Program-made: the position numbers and the translations under genes
Shown here: in pieces, positions 13,175-19,870 of the stretch
Layout of the letters: the number at the start of each line of letters is the position of its first letter
Numbering within the stretch: the stretch's first letter is position 1
Notes under the pieces: generated by a model
Told to the model about the DNA's origin: nothing
Databases searched by the model: none
What the model saw: only the letters and a program-made list of their open reading frames with translations
Assembly: GCA_020627685.1 (NCBI GenBank)
Contig: JAHDGK010000003.1
Location: 1-64,000 of the forward strand
Source of the DNA: Granulosicoccus sp.
GTDB lineage: Bacteria; Pseudomonadota; Gammaproteobacteria; Granulosicoccales; Granulosicoccaceae
Reading direction: 5' to 3'
Length of the DNA stretch: 64,000 nt

Positions 13175-13696
13175 TTACAAGCTCTTTTGCTCGGGAAAAT
13201 CGTTCATGAAGCTGTTGTACAAATCATGAATGTCATCGTTACCCGCAGGTTTTGCCTCGATCTTAAAGGCAAGCTCATAGACATTGCGTTCATCGGTTCT
13301 GCAGTACGACACGGAACTGGCGGCGTTATGAATCAAATCAAGGCCCCAGCCGGATTCAGGAATATTCGGAATACTCGTATCGTATTGTGCGATTGTCCCA
13401 TCTCGCTCAACTAGCTGACGGATCACTGTATTAGATAACGGCTTGCAGGAATCTTCTAATATGATTTTTAATGAATCATCGGAAGCAAATGCCTCTACAT
13501 TTAGATCGTCTTTTTGTTCATTATCTTGCTTGCCGTGACGAATCATGTTGCTGGCCAGTTCTGATATGGCCAGTGTAATGAAATACGCTGCCGTTCCCTC
13601 AACTTTCAGCTGTTGACAAACATCATCAATAGCCAATTCGATTTGTTCAAGGCTAGCGAGTACCCGCTTAGTGTTCAATTGCATCATTGAGTTCAT
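13175..13696 (-). CDS. RsbW-like anti-sigma / serine kinase ATPase
   Basis: 173 residues with a GHKL (HATPase_c_2) fold. The N box is ISELASNMIRHG (E46, N50, H54), and the G2 box is ESGWGLDLI near 115-122. The G1 box is unusual, EDSCKPL with D82 but Cys where DxG motifs have Gly. In RsbW/SpoIIAB systems such proteins bind a sigma factor or effector and phosphorylate a STAS antagonist. Its start overlaps the phosphatase gene by four bases, so the opposing enzymes are made together. A C-terminal extension of about 25 residues is acidic. The likely partner is the STAS protein at 22700. Confidence 0.82.
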   Translation of the reverse strand: MNSMMQLNTKRVLASLEQIELAIDDVCQQLKVEGTAAYFITLAISELASNMIRHGKQDNEQKDDLNVEAFASDDSLKIILEDSCKPLSNTVIRQLVERDGTIAQYDTSIPNIPESGWGLDLIHNAASSVSYCRTDERNVYELAFKIEAKPAGNDDIHDLYNSFMNDFPEQKSL

Positions 13697-14703
13697 TTGG
13701 CACCCTTCTCTAAAGTACCCTTAAAGTCTATGACCAAGAGCGATACATCGTCTCCAAAATCATCAGAGCCTGTCCAGTCTAATAAACCTTCTTCTAAATG
13801 ATGAGTAGCATCTATGACGCCCAGTGATGAAGATTCAATAATTCCTTGCTTAAAACGATCTATTCCGTATTCGGCACCATCTGCATCCTCGCAGTCGGTA
13901 ACACCGTCTGAATAGATAACCAGTCTGTCGTTATCTTTCAGTTGAACCTGATGAACGGTAAATTCAGAATCTACAAACATTCCAGCGGGAAATCCGCCCG
14001 TACCATGCTCCGATAATGTGCCTGTTGCTGTGTCGTAGATAATGGGGGCAGGGTGGCCAGCCTGACAGAAGCTAAGTACTCCCGTCCTTAAATCGACCAG
14101 CCCGTAAACCATGGTAAAGAACTGCAGAAAAATTTCATGGAAACAGAACGCTGTGTTGAGTTCTGTAACCGTATTAAGAACCGCCTCGTCCAGGGGCTTT
14201 TCCTTTCGGCGCTCGTAATTCCCGTACAGACTCTTCTTCGAATTCAGATGTTTCTGAATGGCAAAAGACACTAGGGCAGACGCAATACCATGCCCGGCAA
14301 CGTCTACCACATAGAATGCAAACGTGTGGTCGTTGATCAGGTGGTAATCGTAACCATCTCCGGCAAGATAGTGTGCAGGTCTGAATTTTCCAGCTGCATG
14401 TATAGAGGGAATTAGCAGCGGAGGAGGTAGTAAGTCGTGTTGCACGGTGGCAGCGAGCTGTAGCTCGTTAGTCACATCGCCGTACTGGCTTGTTAACCCT
14501 TTAATGACGCCAGCCTGTTGCTCTAACTGATGGTTGGCCTCAAGTAGATCTTTGTTCCTTTTTCGGATTTCCTCACCGGAAAGAAACAGCTCTCTTGATT
14601 TTGCCTCAAGTACACTTTCGGCTTCTTTCCTGCGACGTTTCTCACGCTCATAGGCGCGCGATATAACGCCGAGATCGGTGGTTGTTTGGTTTGCGCCCGC
14701 CAA
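13693..14703 (-). CDS. SpoIIE/RsbU-type PP2C serine phosphatase with coiled coil
   Basis: 336 residues. Residues about 15-85 are a charged coiled coil (AYEREKRRRKEAESVLEAKS...), and about 95-330 are a PP2C-type phosphatase. Metal-ligand motifs are AGDGYD (114-119), DVAGHG (134-139), SDGVTD and GDDVSLL. In partner-switching systems this enzyme dephosphorylates the STAS protein. The start is TTG at 14703: no ATG is available in frame, and AGG lies about nine bases upstream. Directly upstream in the same frame is a TAA at 14710-14712 that closes an 18-codon open frame beginning at 14766. The coiled coil may receive a signal from the H-NOX protein encoded just upstream. Confidence 0.88.
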   Translation of the reverse strand: MAGANQTTTDLGVISRAYEREKRRRKEAESVLEAKSRELFLSGEEIRKRNKDLLEANHQLEQQAGVIKGLTSQYGDVTNELQLAATVQHDLLPPPLLIPSIHAAGKFRPAHYLAGDGYDYHLINDHTFAFYVVDVAGHGIASALVSFAIQKHLNSKKSLYGNYERRKEKPLDEAVLNTVTELNTAFCFHEIFLQFFTMVYGLVDLRTGVLSFCQAGHPAPIIYDTATGTLSEHGTGGFPAGMFVDSEFTVHQVQLKDNDRLVIYSDGVTDCEDADGAEYGIDRFKQGIIESSSLGVIDATHHLEEGLLDWTGSDDFGDDVSLLVIDFKGTLEKGAK

Positions 14704-14797: not shown

Positions 14798-15352
14798 TTA
14801 GGCTGCGTTTTTTAGGCCATGAAACTTTAGCTGTAAAGTGCAACTGTCATGACCATCGTGCATGCACTGAGAATGGTCAAGTGTGTAGTCTGTATTAAAA
14901 TGTTTGGCCGCACCGGATATTAGCCCTTCCGAAAACATACAGAGTTTTCTGCTAGAGGAGTAGTGCATCGTAAGTTCGTCCTCTGCGTCGTCATCGTAAT
15001 TGAATTTTGGTAGTGAGGCATCAGGGTGAAGTTTTCTTACTTCAACATGTATCACCCGATCTACATTGAGTAGGAATTCTTTCAGAGTTATATCGTCTGA
15101 TGTGAGTTCAGGTACGCTTGCTGCCAATATGGGGAAAGCATATTCACCAAAAGCCCTGTTGATATCCGCCATTGGAATATTAGTTTTTTTGTGTAGCGAC
15201 AGAGTTAGATTGATAAATTCTTGATCTTCGTAGGTGTCAGTAGAAATATAGATGCCGTCAGAGTTTGAATCTTGGAGCATGAAGTCCCAAGTCTCTAAAC
15301 CAAACTCTTGCTCAACCATTTCTGCCAGAGCAGTGAATATTGCACCTTTCAA
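14798..15352 (-). CDS. H-NOX haem nitric-oxide sensor
   Basis: A 184-residue stand-alone H-NOX (HNOB) protein starting MKGAIFTALAEMVEQEFG. The proximal haem ligand is H102 in DRVIHVEVRKLHP, and the propionate-binding YxSxR motif is Y131-S133-R135. Residue 140 is Phe where O2-binding H-NOX proteins carry Tyr, so NO selectivity is expected. C138, C163, C171 and a nearby histidine (H160 or H165) match the zinc site described in Shewanella/Vibrio H-NOX. It is the first gene of an operon with the SpoIIE-type phosphatase (94-base gap) and RsbW-like ATPase. H-NOX proteins usually pair with histidine kinases or diguanylate cyclases; this pairing is unusual. Confidence 0.9.
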   Translation of the reverse strand: MKGAIFTALAEMVEQEFGLETWDFMLQDSNSDGIYISTDTYEDQEFINLTLSLHKKTNIPMADINRAFGEYAFPILAASVPELTSDDITLKEFLLNVDRVIHVEVRKLHPDASLPKFNYDDDAEDELTMHYSSSRKLCMFSEGLISGAAKHFNTDYTLDHSQCMHDGHDSCTLQLKFHGLKNAA

Positions 15353-15523: not shown

Positions 15524-15573
15524 ACGGAATGGGGGTGGTCGCGAAAAACTATCCTAAAGTAGCCTCATTCCGT
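15524..15573 (-). terminator. Inverted repeat at the 3' end of the polysaccharide minus-strand operon
   Basis: ACGGAATG (15524-15531) pairs with CATTCCGT (15566-15573), extendable to 11 pairs with one G-U. The 28-base loop contains the stop codon of the preceding gene and a run of five T's on the minus strand. It may work as a terminator or mRNA-stabilising stem between this operon and the H-NOX operon. There is no classic U tract after the stem. Confidence 0.3.
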
Positions 15574-16955
15574 GAGAAAGGAAATTGAATGCAGCGTTTT
15601 AGGAGTTCCAGGAAACCAGAGTAACCCATGTTCGATTGGGCCGACATTGCGTCGGACAGCAGTCGTTCATCTAACGGTGCATCCAATCCCACATACAGCT
15701 GAGTGGGTCCTATTAATCCGACGGGATACTCCTCAGTTACTTTTTGCCAGCCATCCATGCGGCTTTGATGTTCTTCGGGTGTTAGTACTGATACACCAAA
15801 GAGGTTGATGTTACCTGCCACAACATCTAACACCATTGGCAGGTGACGGAAAGGAGATTCTGGGTTATCGATCAGGAAAGTCACAAACTCTTCGCGTTCC
15901 TGTGTTGTCTCACTGATTCGATTGCTCATAAAGGTTCGCTGAGTATAGACAGCTGTTGGTGAGCGAAGAAACTGCGCGGTGAGCGCAAGAAATAAGACAG
16001 GTAAAGTAATCAGGAACAACAATGCGCCCGCGAAGCGGTTCAGCCATGGGCTTGCATATTCTACGAAAAAACCTTGCCCACGTTCTGAGATAAGAAACTT
16101 ATCGGTAAGCTCAATAACTGCACCGTTGTCTACTCGGATAATCGTATTACCCGATACGATTGAATCTTTGACATGCAGATGTTCACCTATAACCGTGTTG
16201 TCCAAGATGACCGAATTTTCTATCACGGTCATTCTGTCCACGGATACGCCGTGATTGATCATTACCGGACCGGAAAGTTTACATGTGGAATGAACACGGC
16301 AATGATTACCCACATAGATATGACCCGATTGCACTGAGCGAGGATGAAATCGCGTCATATACCCTTGTTTTAATCCAATAGCCTCTTGTTTGCCACGTAG
16401 CTTTAAGGCTCCAAGAGTGCCTTCAACGGCTGCGAGATTGGCCGAATGATATCCGACAACGTCATGTATTTTGTGTACCTGGTTGTCGTCGCAATTGATG
16501 TCTTGAGTATCGCTAATATCGACTCCCGCTGGTAGCAGTGTCAACCCTGATTCTAAGCAATGAACGCCTTCAGTGACGCTCACGTGTTTTTTGAGATTAT
16601 CTCTTAATTGCGCGAATGGAGTGACATAAATACGTTCGCAGGGAACAATCATTAACTCCTGCTGTTGCAAACTCCCGCACCGTTTATAGATAGCCTCCGC
16701 TGGCTCGTTAGTTTGTGCGGAGATTACGTTGACAGTTATTCCCCATCGTTCGCCATCCGATACGATGTGGCGAAGCTCGACGACATTTCCGGACGCAGCT
16801 ATGGTGATTTGCTTAGCGTCCAGTTCTACGACTGCTTCTAGTATATGCTCCAGCAAAGTTTTGCCAGCCACTGGTAAACCTGAAACTGGTTCATCGGCAC
16901 ACAAGGGCTTTAACGACTCATACGAGTGGTTTACAGTCATTAATACGTTGGTCAT
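15549..16955 (-). CDS. Degenerate sugar nucleotidyltransferase / beta-helix / sugar-transferase-like fusion
   Basis: 468 residues in three parts. Residues 1-190 follow the sugar-1-phosphate nucleotidyltransferase layout (LPVAGKTLLEHIL is clear), but the N-terminal GxGTR-type nucleotide motif is missing. Residues about 205-290 are a left-handed beta-helix with hexapeptide-like repeats (VIENSVILDNTVIGEHLHVKDS). After a hydrophobic helix at about 307-330, residues 330-460 resemble the end of a bacterial sugar transferase (LPMVLDVVAGNINLFGVSVL, akin to LPQLxNVLxGdMslVGPRP) without the KFRSM and DxE catalytic parts. It probably has a structural or regulatory role in exopolysaccharide synthesis. 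It is the last gene of the minus-strand operon. Confidence 0.65.
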   Translation of the reverse strand: MTNVLMTVNHSYESLKPLCADEPVSGLPVAGKTLLEHILEAVVELDAKQITIAASGNVVELRHIVSDGERWGITVNVISAQTNEPAEAIYKRCGSLQQQELMIVPCERIYVTPFAQLRDNLKKHVSVTEGVHCLESGLTLLPAGVDISDTQDINCDDNQVHKIHDVVGYHSANLAAVEGTLGALKLRGKQEAIGLKQGYMTRFHPRSVQSGHIYVGNHCRVHSTCKLSGPVMINHGVSVDRMTVIENSVILDNTVIGEHLHVKDSIVSGNTIIRVDNGAVIELTDKFLISERGQGFFVEYASPWLNRFAGALLFLITLPVLFLALTAQFLRSPTAVYTQRTFMSNRISETTQEREEFVTFLIDNPESPFRHLPMVLDVVAGNINLFGVSVLTPEEHQSRMDGWQKVTEEYPVGLIGPTQLYVGLDAPLDERLLSDAMSAQSNMGYSGFLELLKRCIQFPFSRNEATLG

Positions 16956-16986
16956 GACGCTGTCTCGCCTATAGAGTTAGTCATCG

Positions 16987-18957
16987 CTAGTAAGCGCCTT
17001 TGCCTTTTAATACGGCTGGAACGGTTAGTAGCAAGATTTTTATATCGGTAAGAAAGCTATGGGTGTTGATGTAGTCAACATCCAGCTCAACCTGTTGTAC
17101 AAAAGGAATATCTGAACGACCGGATACTTGCCAGATGCAGGTTATTCCCGGTTTGATTTCCAAACGTCTTCGATTGTCAATAGTGTACTCGGCAACTTCC
17201 TGTGGTACCGGTGGGCGAGGGCCCACTAATGCCATGTCGCCTTTCAGAACATTCCATAATTGGGGTAATTCATCGATGGAAAATTTTCGTATGAACTTCC
17301 CTGTCTTTGTGATTCGGGGATCCTCCTTCATTTTGAAAAGGACACCCTGATCCATTTCGTTTTGCTCAGCTAAAGAGGACTTTAGGAACTCTGCATCTAC
17401 ACACATTGAGCGGAACTTATACATATTAAACAGCACACCCCATTTGCCCACACGCTTTTGGGTAAAGAACACAGGGCCAGGTGACTCTAGCTTTATCAGG
17501 ATCGCAACTACCAGCAGCGGTATGAACAAGATAGCCAAAGCCGTAAATGAAACGCTAATGTCCAGAAAGCGCCTCAAGGCTCTGAATGTCCAATGAGTTA
17601 AGAAGTAAGTAATATGTGACAAGTGATGCCGCAACTTTGAGCTGTTCATTGCGCTGTCCATATTAGAAAATCGTTTGACGACGCGCGCACCCGATTCCTG
17701 TTTGGTTTGCTTCCAGACACGGTACAGAAACAAAGGATTTCCCAATATGTATCGTCGCCACATTCTCTGCGGTTCCTGCAACAATCTCCAGATCCATTCC
17801 AGCCCTAGATCTTGTAACAACTTAGGGGAACGGCTTATACGTCCGGAGAAAAAGTCAAACAGGCCGCCCACTCCCATGAGCACTGGCGCGTTTATCGATT
17901 CCCGGTTTTCAGTCATCCAGAGTTCTTGTTTAGGTGCTCCAAAGGCGACTAAAACGATATCTGCACCAGAGGTGTTTACCTTCTCGATCACACCCGGTTC
18001 GTCTTCTTTGTTGAAGTAACCATGTTGAACACCGGCGATTTTTAACCCCGGATACTTCTCTTGCATGTTACTGGCTACTTTCTCAGCGATGCCTTCACGT
18101 GCTCCAACAAGAAACAATGAATGATCGTTTTCGATACATTGCCTACAGAGAAGAGGGAAGAGGTCAGTCCCGTTTACATTCGCTTTAATACGATCACCCA
18201 AAAGTCTTGCAGCCAGTTGGAGACCGCTACCATCTGCAAACACACAATCCATCTGGTTGAGTGACGCTTTATACGTAGAATCTTCGAACGTCTTGTTAAG
18301 ACAATCCGGATTGACAAAGGCGTATTTGGATTTGCTGTTTGAGGTGATGCTTTGATGAATACTCTTAAGTGCACTATCAATTGTATGATTGTGAATAGTG
18401 ACACCTAAATAGGTAAACTTATCGGGTATCCTTGCAGTAGCGGATGGCGCAATTAAGCTAGACACCAAAAACTGAAAAATTATTGAGATGGACTCTTTCA
18501 GTGTGTAATCTCTCTGAACTTCCGCATCCAGGCCTTCATATTCAATGCCCAGTTGGCGACGCAATCGCTGACGGCAGAGCAATCCAGGCCGAAGTACGTT
18601 AGCAGTCGAATGTTGACCTTCAGTATCTTGTTTGCCGATACTGGATCCCACCCAAGCGGCATGTCCTGAAGCCACGCTGAACAGTAGCCCTAGATTTCTC
18701 CCAGACTGTAACCCTGCGAAACGCTGCAGCCTGACAAACTGCCCATTCGCGGATTGGCTCTCTGTAGTGTCAAAGATTCGTTGATGCTTTCTCTTTGCAA
18801 CAATCGCTCTCCAAGCAACGAGTGGCGATAACACCACGATGAGTGTGCTCGCGGTAACACGGTCGAAGATGCCTCTTCCATCCATAGGAGATGCGTGAAT
18901 TTCCGATGAGCCGATGCGAGCATCGTTCGGATCTATCTCATTTGTCGCTTGCAACAT
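16987..18957 (-). CDS. WecG/TagA glycosyltransferase fused to undecaprenyl-phosphate sugar transferase
   Basis: I prefer the ATG at 18957 (AGGA eight bases upstream) over a TTG at 19008; the product is 656 residues. Residues 1-170 are a decayed sugar-transferase-like domain (FDRVTASTLIVVLSPL, later GLLFSVASGHAAWVG). About 175-405 are a WecG/TagA/CpsF glycosyltransferase (VNPDCLNKTF, FADGSGLQLAARLLG, FGAPKQELWM). About 450-655 are an intact phosphoglycosyl transferase: membrane helix, SPGPVFFTQKRVG, KFRSMCVDAE, DELPQLWNVLKGDM, VGPRPPVP. The fusion can both start the lipid-linked repeat unit and add a second sugar at the inner membrane. Confidence 0.88.
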   Translation of the reverse strand: MLQATNEIDPNDARIGSSEIHASPMDGRGIFDRVTASTLIVVLSPLVAWRAIVAKRKHQRIFDTTESQSANGQFVRLQRFAGLQSGRNLGLLFSVASGHAAWVGSSIGKQDTEGQHSTANVLRPGLLCRQRLRRQLGIEYEGLDAEVQRDYTLKESISIIFQFLVSSLIAPSATARIPDKFTYLGVTIHNHTIDSALKSIHQSITSNSKSKYAFVNPDCLNKTFEDSTYKASLNQMDCVFADGSGLQLAARLLGDRIKANVNGTDLFPLLCRQCIENDHSLFLVGAREGIAEKVASNMQEKYPGLKIAGVQHGYFNKEDEPGVIEKVNTSGADIVLVAFGAPKQELWMTENRESINAPVLMGVGGLFDFFSGRISRSPKLLQDLGLEWIWRLLQEPQRMWRRYILGNPLFLYRVWKQTKQESGARVVKRFSNMDSAMNSSKLRHHLSHITYFLTHWTFRALRRFLDISVSFTALAILFIPLLVVAILIKLESPGPVFFTQKRVGKWGVLFNMYKFRSMCVDAEFLKSSLAEQNEMDQGVLFKMKEDPRITKTGKFIRKFSIDELPQLWNVLKGDMALVGPRPPVPQEVAEYTIDNRRRLEIKPGITCIWQVSGRSDIPFVQQVELDVDYINTHSFLTDIKILLLTVPAVLKGKGAY

Positions 18958-19000
18958 GCGGTTAGTCCTACTTAGACTTAAGCCATTGAACGTCAGTGAT

Positions 19001-19870
19001 TTATTCAACGTCAGAAAAGAATGTTTCTTTTCCGATCGTCGCCTTGATCAGCAACCGTTGAACAACATTGAGTTTGCCTTTTTTCTTTCTGGCGAAACCT
19101 TCGGGTTCCTCGACGATAGTCGATCCGGAACGCTCAGCAAATTCGCCGTAGCGGTGTAACTCGAATTTCGAATTCTTCATGAGATCGACACTTTCTTTGC
19201 TAGCGTCCAATTTCATGAATTCCAAAATACCTTGAATCACAACGTCGGGGTTTGATCTAAGATCTTCGTACCGCACCGTGTGTATTTTGGATTTATCGGC
19301 TTTAGAAAAATCAGCGCTGGCTTTTCTGCTGAAGTAATAACACAAGCGAATAGCACTAATCACCGAGCCCGGTGCCCAATGTTTACCCCAGCCCGACCCC
19401 GCACTTAACATGGACTCAATAATGTCTGCAGGGTCACGGAGCATCAGAATGATTTTGGCTTCAGGAACTACACGCTGAATGTCCAATATGTGTCGGATAT
19501 GGTCAGGAGTTTTTTCTAAGAAAACTGATCCTTTAGAGTATTCATCGCACTTGCCCAACACCTCTCTTACTTGACGATGCATCATGTCCATGAATTCAGA
19601 TTCGCGTTGGTAAGCAGGTATACCGATACCCCCTCTACCATCTTCGAACGCCATCATGTGATCCCATGATTCAATTTGTTTCCCGAGAAAATGATTGAAT
19701 AGATGGGATTCTTGTGCCGTGCCCACTTCCGGGTGGTTGCCCAGTAGTTTCTGCAGCCATGTGGTGCCACTACGTGGTAGTCCAACCAGGAATACCAGTT
19801 CGGGATTTGCATCGGCATCGGGTACCGGCAAGATGTCAGAATCTTCGTATAAGCGTAAGGCACTGTTCAT
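19001..19870 (-). CDS. Sulfotransferase family protein
   Basis: 289 residues with the PAPS-binding loop GLPRSGTTWLQKLL at about 30-43 and the 3'-phosphate motif LRDPADIIESMLS near 145. These features define the Sulfotransfer family, which moves sulfate from PAPS to a hydroxyl or amine. Set between glycosyltransferase genes, it probably sulfates the exopolysaccharide or a lipid-linked intermediate; sulfated polymers are common in marine bacteria. The stop lies just upstream of the preferred start of the WecG fusion, and the start overlaps the GT2 gene by four bases, so it is firmly in the operon. Confidence 0.88.
   Translation of the reverse strand: MNSALRLYEDSDILPVPDADANPELVFLVGLPRSGTTWLQKLLGNHPEVGTAQESHLFNHFLGKQIESWDHMMAFEDGRGGIGIPAYQRESEFMDMMHRQVREVLGKCDEYSKGSVFLEKTPDHIRHILDIQRVVPEAKIILMLRDPADIIESMLSAGSGWGKHWAPGSVISAIRLCYYFSRKASADFSKADKSKIHTVRYEDLRSNPDVVIQGILEFMKLDASKESVDLMKNSKFELHRYGEFAERSGSTIVEEPEGFARKKKGKLNVVQRLLIKATIGKETFFSDVE

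Follow-up and report, generated by a model that had tools for sequence, protein, structure and literature searches.

Why should a locus for polysaccharide synthesis encode, next to one intact sugar transferase domain, two further copies of that domain from which the catalytic residues have gone? The question is raised by a 64,000-nucleotide stretch of Granulosicoccus sp. DNA (contig JAHDGK010000003.1, positions 1 to 64,000; hereafter the window), in which two adjacent genes encode a fusion protein ending in a monotopic phosphoglycosyl transferase (PGT) and a separate 468-residue protein. A sequence-only reading had placed one intact and two degenerate PGT domains in these genes, and open reading frames (ORFs), Pfam matches and homologues bear out that arrangement on the minus strand at the coordinates given below. 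The answer that we favour, with modest confidence and from sequence comparison, is that the degenerate copies belong to a conserved pseudoenzyme accessory of an initiating PGT-WecG enzyme, which probably starts a surface sugar chain. In what follows psPGT denotes a degenerate PGT-like domain, NTP a nucleotidyltransferase-like half and LbH a left-handed beta-helix.

16987..18957, minus strand: psPGT-WecG-PGT fusion gene (ORF; 656 aa from the ATG at 18957)
18439..18882, minus strand: psPGT-N, degenerate PGT-like domain at the N-terminus of the fusion (about residues 43-190, numbered from the TTG start)
17749..18249, minus strand: WecG/TagA/CpsF glycosyltransferase domain of the fusion (PF03808, E 3.6e-65)
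17005..17574, minus strand: intact monotopic PGT domain at the C-terminus of the fusion (PF02397; KFRSM, DELPQ and GPRP present)
15549..16955, minus strand: NTP-LbH-psPGT gene, 468 aa (ORF and homologues)
16581..16955, minus strand: pseudo-nucleotidyltransferase half of the 468-aa protein (motif counts in 26 proteins)
16101..16400, minus strand: short LbH of the 468-aa protein, approximate limits (PF25084 and PDB profile matches)
15573..16058, minus strand: psPGT-C, degenerate PGT-like domain at the C-terminus of the 468-aa protein (homologues and profile matches)

An alternative TTG start at 19008 would extend the fusion to 16987-19008 and 673 aa. Its C-terminal PGT is intact, as had been claimed: the Pfam family Bac_transf (PF02397) matches with 229.6 bits over profile positions 1-179, and in a PDB sequence search the domain aligns with WbaP chains at E 2.4e-46. 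The WecG domain is likewise complete (219.3 bits, positions 2-168 of 168 in PF03808), and the corresponding part of a structural model of the fusion superimposes on TarA (5wfg) with Z 27.6, within a TarA/TagA range of Z 27.3-27.6.

Neither degenerate copy of the window is matched by Bac_transf. Since both lie below Pfam detection, the case for their identity rests on homologues. Relatives of the 468-aa protein were recovered when the proteins of 369 genomes of the class were searched, and a scan of named genomes gave seven loci. Competibacteraceae, Methylococcus capsulatus and a genome of the Myxococcaceae are among these, and in the seventh, from Reyranella, the match is confined to the nucleotidyltransferase part; a scan of genome contigs with the window protein alone as query yielded no confirmed relatives. 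Among five homologues of the NTP family, four have an above cut-off Bac_transf match at the C-terminus (27.1-38.3 bits, profile positions ∼88-178), and the protein of the remaining one, L040, stops after the helix. Both WecG homologues have such a match at the N-terminus (58.8 and 51.3 bits, positions ∼90-175). These Pfam matches of the degenerate copies cover the C-terminal half of the Bac_transf profile. The NTP protein of L195 has no psPGT domain. In the f194 family, the fusions of L207 and L210 each show a single Bac_transf stretch, which is the C-terminal PGT, and that of L209 shows two, the position of the second being unplaced.

Profile-profile comparison scored 99.7% for the N-copy against the active PGT, 98.1% for the C-copy against the active PGT and 98.6% for the two copies against each other, with the window sequences included in the sets and E-values that refer to single pairs rather than to a database. 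When the profile of the NTP family was compared with the PDB, PglC (8e37, E 1.1e-5) and WbaP (8t53, E 8.6e-4) were matched over the psPGT-C columns; as single sequences, the N-copy of genome G068 matched PglC at E 8.9e-10 and its C-copy reached E 0.0042 at best. Both structure predictions made are of monomers and of low to moderate confidence. In that of the window fusion, residues 41-186 superimpose on WbaP (8t53) with Z 8.5 and a root-mean-square deviation of 4.2 over 129 residues, and matches to PglC have Z 8.7 and 8.3, with an aligned range that runs on into WecG; the first unrelated structure has Z 7.2 and covers another part of the model. This superposition is supportive of a PGT-like fold in the predicted N-copy, short of conclusive. 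Chance resemblance was considered and rejected: the Pfam matches of relatives, the profile-profile comparison and the PDB sequence search concur for both copies, as does the structure comparison for the N-copy. The degenerate domains are thus homologous to the monotopic PGT fold, but they fail on the catalytic residues and are therefore not classed as PGTs.

In PglC the landmarks are a DX12P motif (D11, P24), the dyad D93-E94, and K59, R88, R111 and D168, as described in PMC12802240. The claim that the C-copy lacks KFRSM and DxE holds as far as motif loss is concerned. DxE does not stand as the catalytic pair: PDB alignments put the D93-E94 dyad of PglC in 'DELPQL', not in the DAE that follows KFRSM, and this pair is lost too. 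By aligned columns, the complete Asp-Glu dyad occurs in none of 20 N-copies and none of 23 C-copies. Asp is kept in the D93 column in 0 of 20 N-copies (gapped) and 1 of 23 C-copies, Glu in the E94 column in 2 of 20 and 0 of 23, and the PDB alignments of G068 have R and E at the two positions in the N-copy, R and Y in the C-copy. KFRSM was found in none of the 23 NTP proteins and none of the 20 N-terminal parts of the WecG proteins, its Lys column (the Lys59 region) being kept in two N-copies and no C-copy; the Arg of GPRP persists in 7 of 20 N-copies and 1 of 23 C-copies. KFRSM and DELP are also absent from the degenerate parts of ten more proteins, from five f194 loci read later; these five loci and L040 stand outside the motif columns of the degenerate domains and outside the initial NTP motif table. 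Both kinds of degenerate copy have a Lys-to-Asp spacing of 7-8 residues, as against 46-47 in active domains, a figure that depends on the alignment and on which two separate alignments agree. Approximately 39 residues are missing after the KFRSM position, a stretch that overlaps the mobile loop or helix-turn-helix region. That region is thought to shape the substrate pocket of PGTs (PMC10942596).

In all 20 N-copies and all 23 C-copies, by contrast, the proline that kinks the re-entrant membrane helix is retained, as is the Gly of VG in the folded half. Strict DX12P is found in 16 of 20 N-copies, that of the window included, and in 16 of 18 active PGTs, with the window's own PGT (DX13P) among the exceptions. 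Retention of the helix and of half of the fold could be taken to mean that the domains have gained a new catalytic or lipid-handling activity, for example holding undecaprenyl-linked intermediates for WecG, and one copy is indeed fused to an enzyme expected to use the PGT product. However, the lost dyad has no conserved acidic or basic substitute in the tabulated columns, and we consider a new activity improbable.

The main rival is simpler: the degenerate domains could be membrane anchors only, whose re-entrant helix holds the NTP-LbH protein and WecG at the inner leaflet while the active PGT is not specifically contacted. WecG-family enzymes use a membrane-bound acceptor, for which a tether would be apt; the kink proline is among the best-kept residues of both copies; and five NTP-LbH proteins do without the psPGT domain altogether. 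Yet conservation in the half after the helix (2.35 bits per column in N-copies, 2.37 in C-copies) is about that of the helix itself (2.43 and 2.41 bits), and the glycines are nearly invariant. A bare anchor would need no half after the helix, so this conservation counts against it and argues for a role beyond anchoring. A plain anchor is nevertheless a real, if less probable, possibility.

The other half of the 468-aa protein has lost residues of its own. The Arg of the GTR motif is absent from all 26 proteins counted and the Lys of the PK motif from all but one (L197), in agreement with the claim that the nucleotidyltransferase half lacks GxGTR; L037, whose N-terminus is cut by a contig end, was left out of these counts. 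In the window protein the metal position of the GD motif is Glu instead of Asp. Pfam gives this protein sub-threshold nucleotidyltransferase and hexapeptide signals, and PF25084 matches residues 211-274 (E 1e-8, under its curated cut-off). In a PDB sequence search the family profile matches eIF2B-epsilon, RmlA and GMPPA, and the helices of 8x7s and eIF2B align with it over the LbH region. In the low-confidence model of the 468-aa protein, 118-137 columns align with MurU/RmlA, and the best 50 Foldseek matches listed for it are nucleotidyltransferases.

Are the copies merely functionless, decaying remnants of a duplication? Their catalytic motifs are lost, and the window copies have diverged further than their counterparts in relatives, as would be expected of such remnants. 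However, the frames are open, and the same loss recurs across several families and in a Myxococcaceae genome. The ratio of non-synonymous to synonymous substitution (dN/dS) lies between 0.08 and 0.36 in unsaturated pairs, the N-copy giving 0.116, 0.250, 0.359 and 0.261 and the C-copy 0.080, 0.101, 0.287, 0.241 and 0.090. Saturation of synonymous sites affected 3 of 7 psPGT-N pairs and 3 of 8 psPGT-C pairs, and dS reaches 1.2 in the pairs used. WecG gave 0.061-0.139 in the same four N-copy pairs, and in the sole unsaturated pair for the active PGT its value was 0.112, compared with 0.116 for psPGT-N. The degenerate domains are under constraint, which is looser on the N-copy than on WecG. A tree of 71 rows groups the C-copies in one clade (support 99/91) and the N-copies in another (96/81), both apart from the active PGTs (100/97). 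Ten of 11 other PGTs were recovered for this tree, which has long branches and no known root and does not include the five later f194 loci. Pseudogene decay was rejected on these selection and distribution data, which contradict it, and we regard it as very improbable.

The two proteins also occur together. Of 48 genomes from the window's order, 11 have the psPGT-WecG protein, and the NTP family is found in exactly these 11; in the class sample psPGT-WecG is present in 8 of 369 genomes, all of them within the 11 that have the NTP family. The NTP sets were taken at E <= 1e-30 (order) and E <= 1e-10 (class), and the psPGT-WecG sets by a match start at model position <=14 (order) or <=80 (class); Fisher p-values for co-occurrence were 4e-11 and 2e-14, with shared descent ignored. 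The order-level NTP match of G751 is limited to positions 182-320; this genome has a triple fusion beside a shortened NTP-LbH partner that lacks psPGT. In G199 and G153 the NTP gene lies at a contig end, so that absence of psPGT-WecG there is not judgeable, and G177, G284 and G793 carry the two genes on separate contigs. A family match at E <= 1e-25 was obtained in 4 of 398 genomes of a phylum sample, the source genome included, which makes the module rare. A sample of 58 genomes from one f194 family includes 12 with the module, and the loci read from these number seven (L136, L137 and the later five).

Gene order is well preserved. A PGT is encoded directly upstream of the NTP gene at 21 of 28 loci and at 5 of 5 later f194 loci, where the fusion gene is followed by the NTP gene each time, giving 26 of 33. 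In this count L041 and L042, which repeat L034 and L035, were counted once and L040 was added; the seven loci without a directly upstream PGT comprise two contig ends, two Methylococcus-type loci, two unlinked loci and L040. The PGT need not be fused, since a separate PGT precedes the NTP gene in L138, from another class, and in L046 (Myxococcaceae), and three f144 genomes have a separate PGT with an NTP-LbH protein that lacks psPGT.

Such loci bear on a further possibility, which overlaps the favoured reading, namely that the NTP-LbH part is a nucleotide-sugar sensor that acts on PGT-WecG without docking and that psPGT-C is dispensable. In L195-L198 the NTP-LbH protein is retained directly after the PGT in the absence of psPGT-C, and the family profile matches regulatory relatives, the eIF2B subunits and GMPPA. 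On the other hand, psPGT-C is conserved where it occurs, purifying selection acts on it in the measured pairs, and the nucleotidyltransferase half has lost the GTR Arg and the PK Lys. We judge a sensor that does not dock unlikely.

Several observations weigh against a pseudoenzyme accessory that works on the neighbouring PGT. Some concern the identity of the domains: psPGT-C of L127 is sub-cut-off in Pfam (21.1 bits), the NTP protein of L209 has no Bac_transf match in Pfam, and in L207 and L208 the N-copy profile gives no separate N-terminal match, a hydrophobic proline-containing segment being present there. The AlphaFold2 model of the 468-aa protein, made from a 7-sequence alignment, has a mean pLDDT (predicted local distance difference test score) of 43.5 and an unusable C-terminal fold. 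By column, strict DX12P is found in 0 of 23 C-copies, 12 of which have N at the Asp position. Others concern function, as the nucleotidyltransferase site is partly kept (GxG glycine in 15 of 26 proteins, KP Lys in 19, metal Asp in 18) and the N-copy evolves faster than WecG in each unsaturated pair. The remainder concern linkage. Synteny could simply reflect one polysaccharide cluster moving together. Methylococcus capsulatus (L045) and a close relative (L036) have the module without a PGT in the cluster, the sole full-length PF02397 match of each genome lying elsewhere. Five loci (L040 and L195-L198) keep an NTP-LbH protein without psPGT-C, so this domain is not essential to the module, and together with the Methylococcus-type loci they mean that not every module is paired with a local PGT. 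G340, the genome of L040, has no psPGT-WecG match in the class search and no PGT upstream of its NTP gene. This genome may be a true exception to co-occurrence; its NTP gene lies 469 bases from the contig end, and a second helix-like piece is found in those bases. The start of the G340 contig (L040:1-1339) thus carries two helix-containing pieces of the NTP-LbH family in tandem.

The sequence-only reading had further proposed that catalysis was lost, the fold retained and a regulatory or scaffolding role acquired. Motif loss, low dN/dS, synteny and co-occurrence agree with this, the helix proline and the C-terminal half being retained under purifying selection, and the role itself is the most economical reading of them. 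The specific form that the reading had suggested, a heterodimer with the active domain, would be one candidate way of filling that role. The readings weighed here overlap, and the likelihoods that we attach to them are not meant to add up to a whole.

How might a pseudoenzyme accessory of this kind work? In our proposal, the products of this locus initiate a surface polysaccharide of the Wzx/Wzy type. Judged by its family, the PGT domain would transfer a sugar-1-phosphate to undecaprenyl phosphate, and the second sugar would come from the fused WecG domain. We infer that the degenerate domains are placed next to the PGT by their membrane helix; as neighbours of the active PGT-WecG enzyme in the membrane, the dead copies would dock on it and hold or tune it. 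The dead nucleotidyltransferase half may sense a nucleotide or nucleotide sugar, in the manner of GMPPA with GMPPB or of the proposed response of WbaP to UMP. More tentatively, psPGT-N and the NTP-LbH-psPGT protein could form mixed pseudo-dimers with the active PGT in the membrane that allosterically gate the first committed step of polysaccharide synthesis and read the level of sugar nucleotide; that in some genomes a signal from neighbouring genes is also read through these dead enzyme copies is an equally speculative extension. If the accessory is real, a membrane enzyme family would be regulated by its own pseudoenzymes, and the locus would offer a testable control module tied to one PGT-WecG enzyme.

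The neighbouring genes suggest where such a signal might come from. On the 5' side of the fusion, the same strand encodes a sulfotransferase, a glycosyltransferase of family GT2 and Wzx, and on the 3' side of the 468-aa gene there is a set of three signalling genes identified by Pfam:

14798..15352, minus strand: H-NOX (HNOB) protein (PF07700, E 5.4e-38)
13693..14703, minus strand: SpoIIE/RsbU-type PP2C phosphatase (PF07228, E 8e-36)
13175..13696, minus strand: HATPase anti-sigma-like kinase (PF13581, E 1.5e-12)

In L128-L131, too, the H-NOX set adjoins the module. Of 27 loci, 9 have a SpoIIE gene no more than ∼3 kb away from the NTP gene (the window, L036, L037, L045 and L127-L131). By this association the H-NOX protein, SpoIIE phosphatase and HATPase are a possible input to the module, and the H-NOX and partner-switch set would add its signal in some genomes. 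Genome-wide, the source organism has three SpoIIE and two HNOB matches. In L036, L037, L045 and L127 the adjoining SpoIIE gene matches the Methylococcus receiver-SpoIIE protein, and in L128 (7159-8682) the SpoIIE phosphatase and HATPase, which are separate genes in the window, are in one ORF. Downstream of the f194 module there are a cytidylyltransferase-like gene and a CDP-glycerol glycerophosphotransferase (L209:9088-10740, Pfam), with similar genes seen by eye in L207, L210 and L211, which suggests a teichoic-acid-like decoration with glycerol phosphate. An 809-aa ORF in L144 (7035-9464) has a PGT match at residues 12-167 followed by a long C-terminal extension. The module is absent among the literature matches listed for Granulosicoccus exopolysaccharide and for H-NOX with partner switching.

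No description of dead PGT domains was found among the literature matches listed, which do not cover the superfamily network study (O'Toole 2021b), so that an earlier mention is possible. Several known systems come close to the proposed module. Bifunctional monotopic PGTs (Bi-PGTs), in which a PGT domain is fused to another enzyme domain (PMC10942596), share with the window an intact PGT fused to a further enzyme domain; here, in contrast, WecG has a dead PGT domain in front of it, and a third copy is found in a separate protein. WbaP, one of the large monotopic PGTs, also has a non-catalytic part ahead of its PGT, a proposed nucleotide sensor and shaper of the dimer, and its cytoplasmic domain of unknown function (DUF) is proposed to respond to UMP (PMC10942596). 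That part consists of a four-helix bundle and the PF13727 DUF, whereas here a dead PGT domain and WecG occupy the position. A separate non-catalytic protein acting on an initiating PGT is known from Myxococcus xanthus, where EpsW activates EpsZ (PMC12802240), although EpsW is a single-domain response regulator and the candidate here is an NTP-LbH-psPGT protein. The non-catalytic protein GMPPA binds GDP-mannose and has a regulatory effect on GMPPB (PMC11228364); together with eIF2B gamma and epsilon, the GMPPA/GMPPB pair uses a nucleotidyltransferase-like fold and a left-handed helix for regulation or assembly. Unlike these, the bacterial protein carries a dead PGT domain as well, and it is usually encoded next to a PGT. 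In Caulobacter, HfiA inhibits the WecG-family enzyme HfsJ (PMC3900383), a case of an accessory protein controlling a WecG/TagA-family transferase post-translationally; HfiA is a small protein, for which the available part of that account mentions no PGT-like domain. By analogy with these systems, the module may act as accessory proteins that control PGTs are known to do, or in the way of pseudoenzyme subunits.

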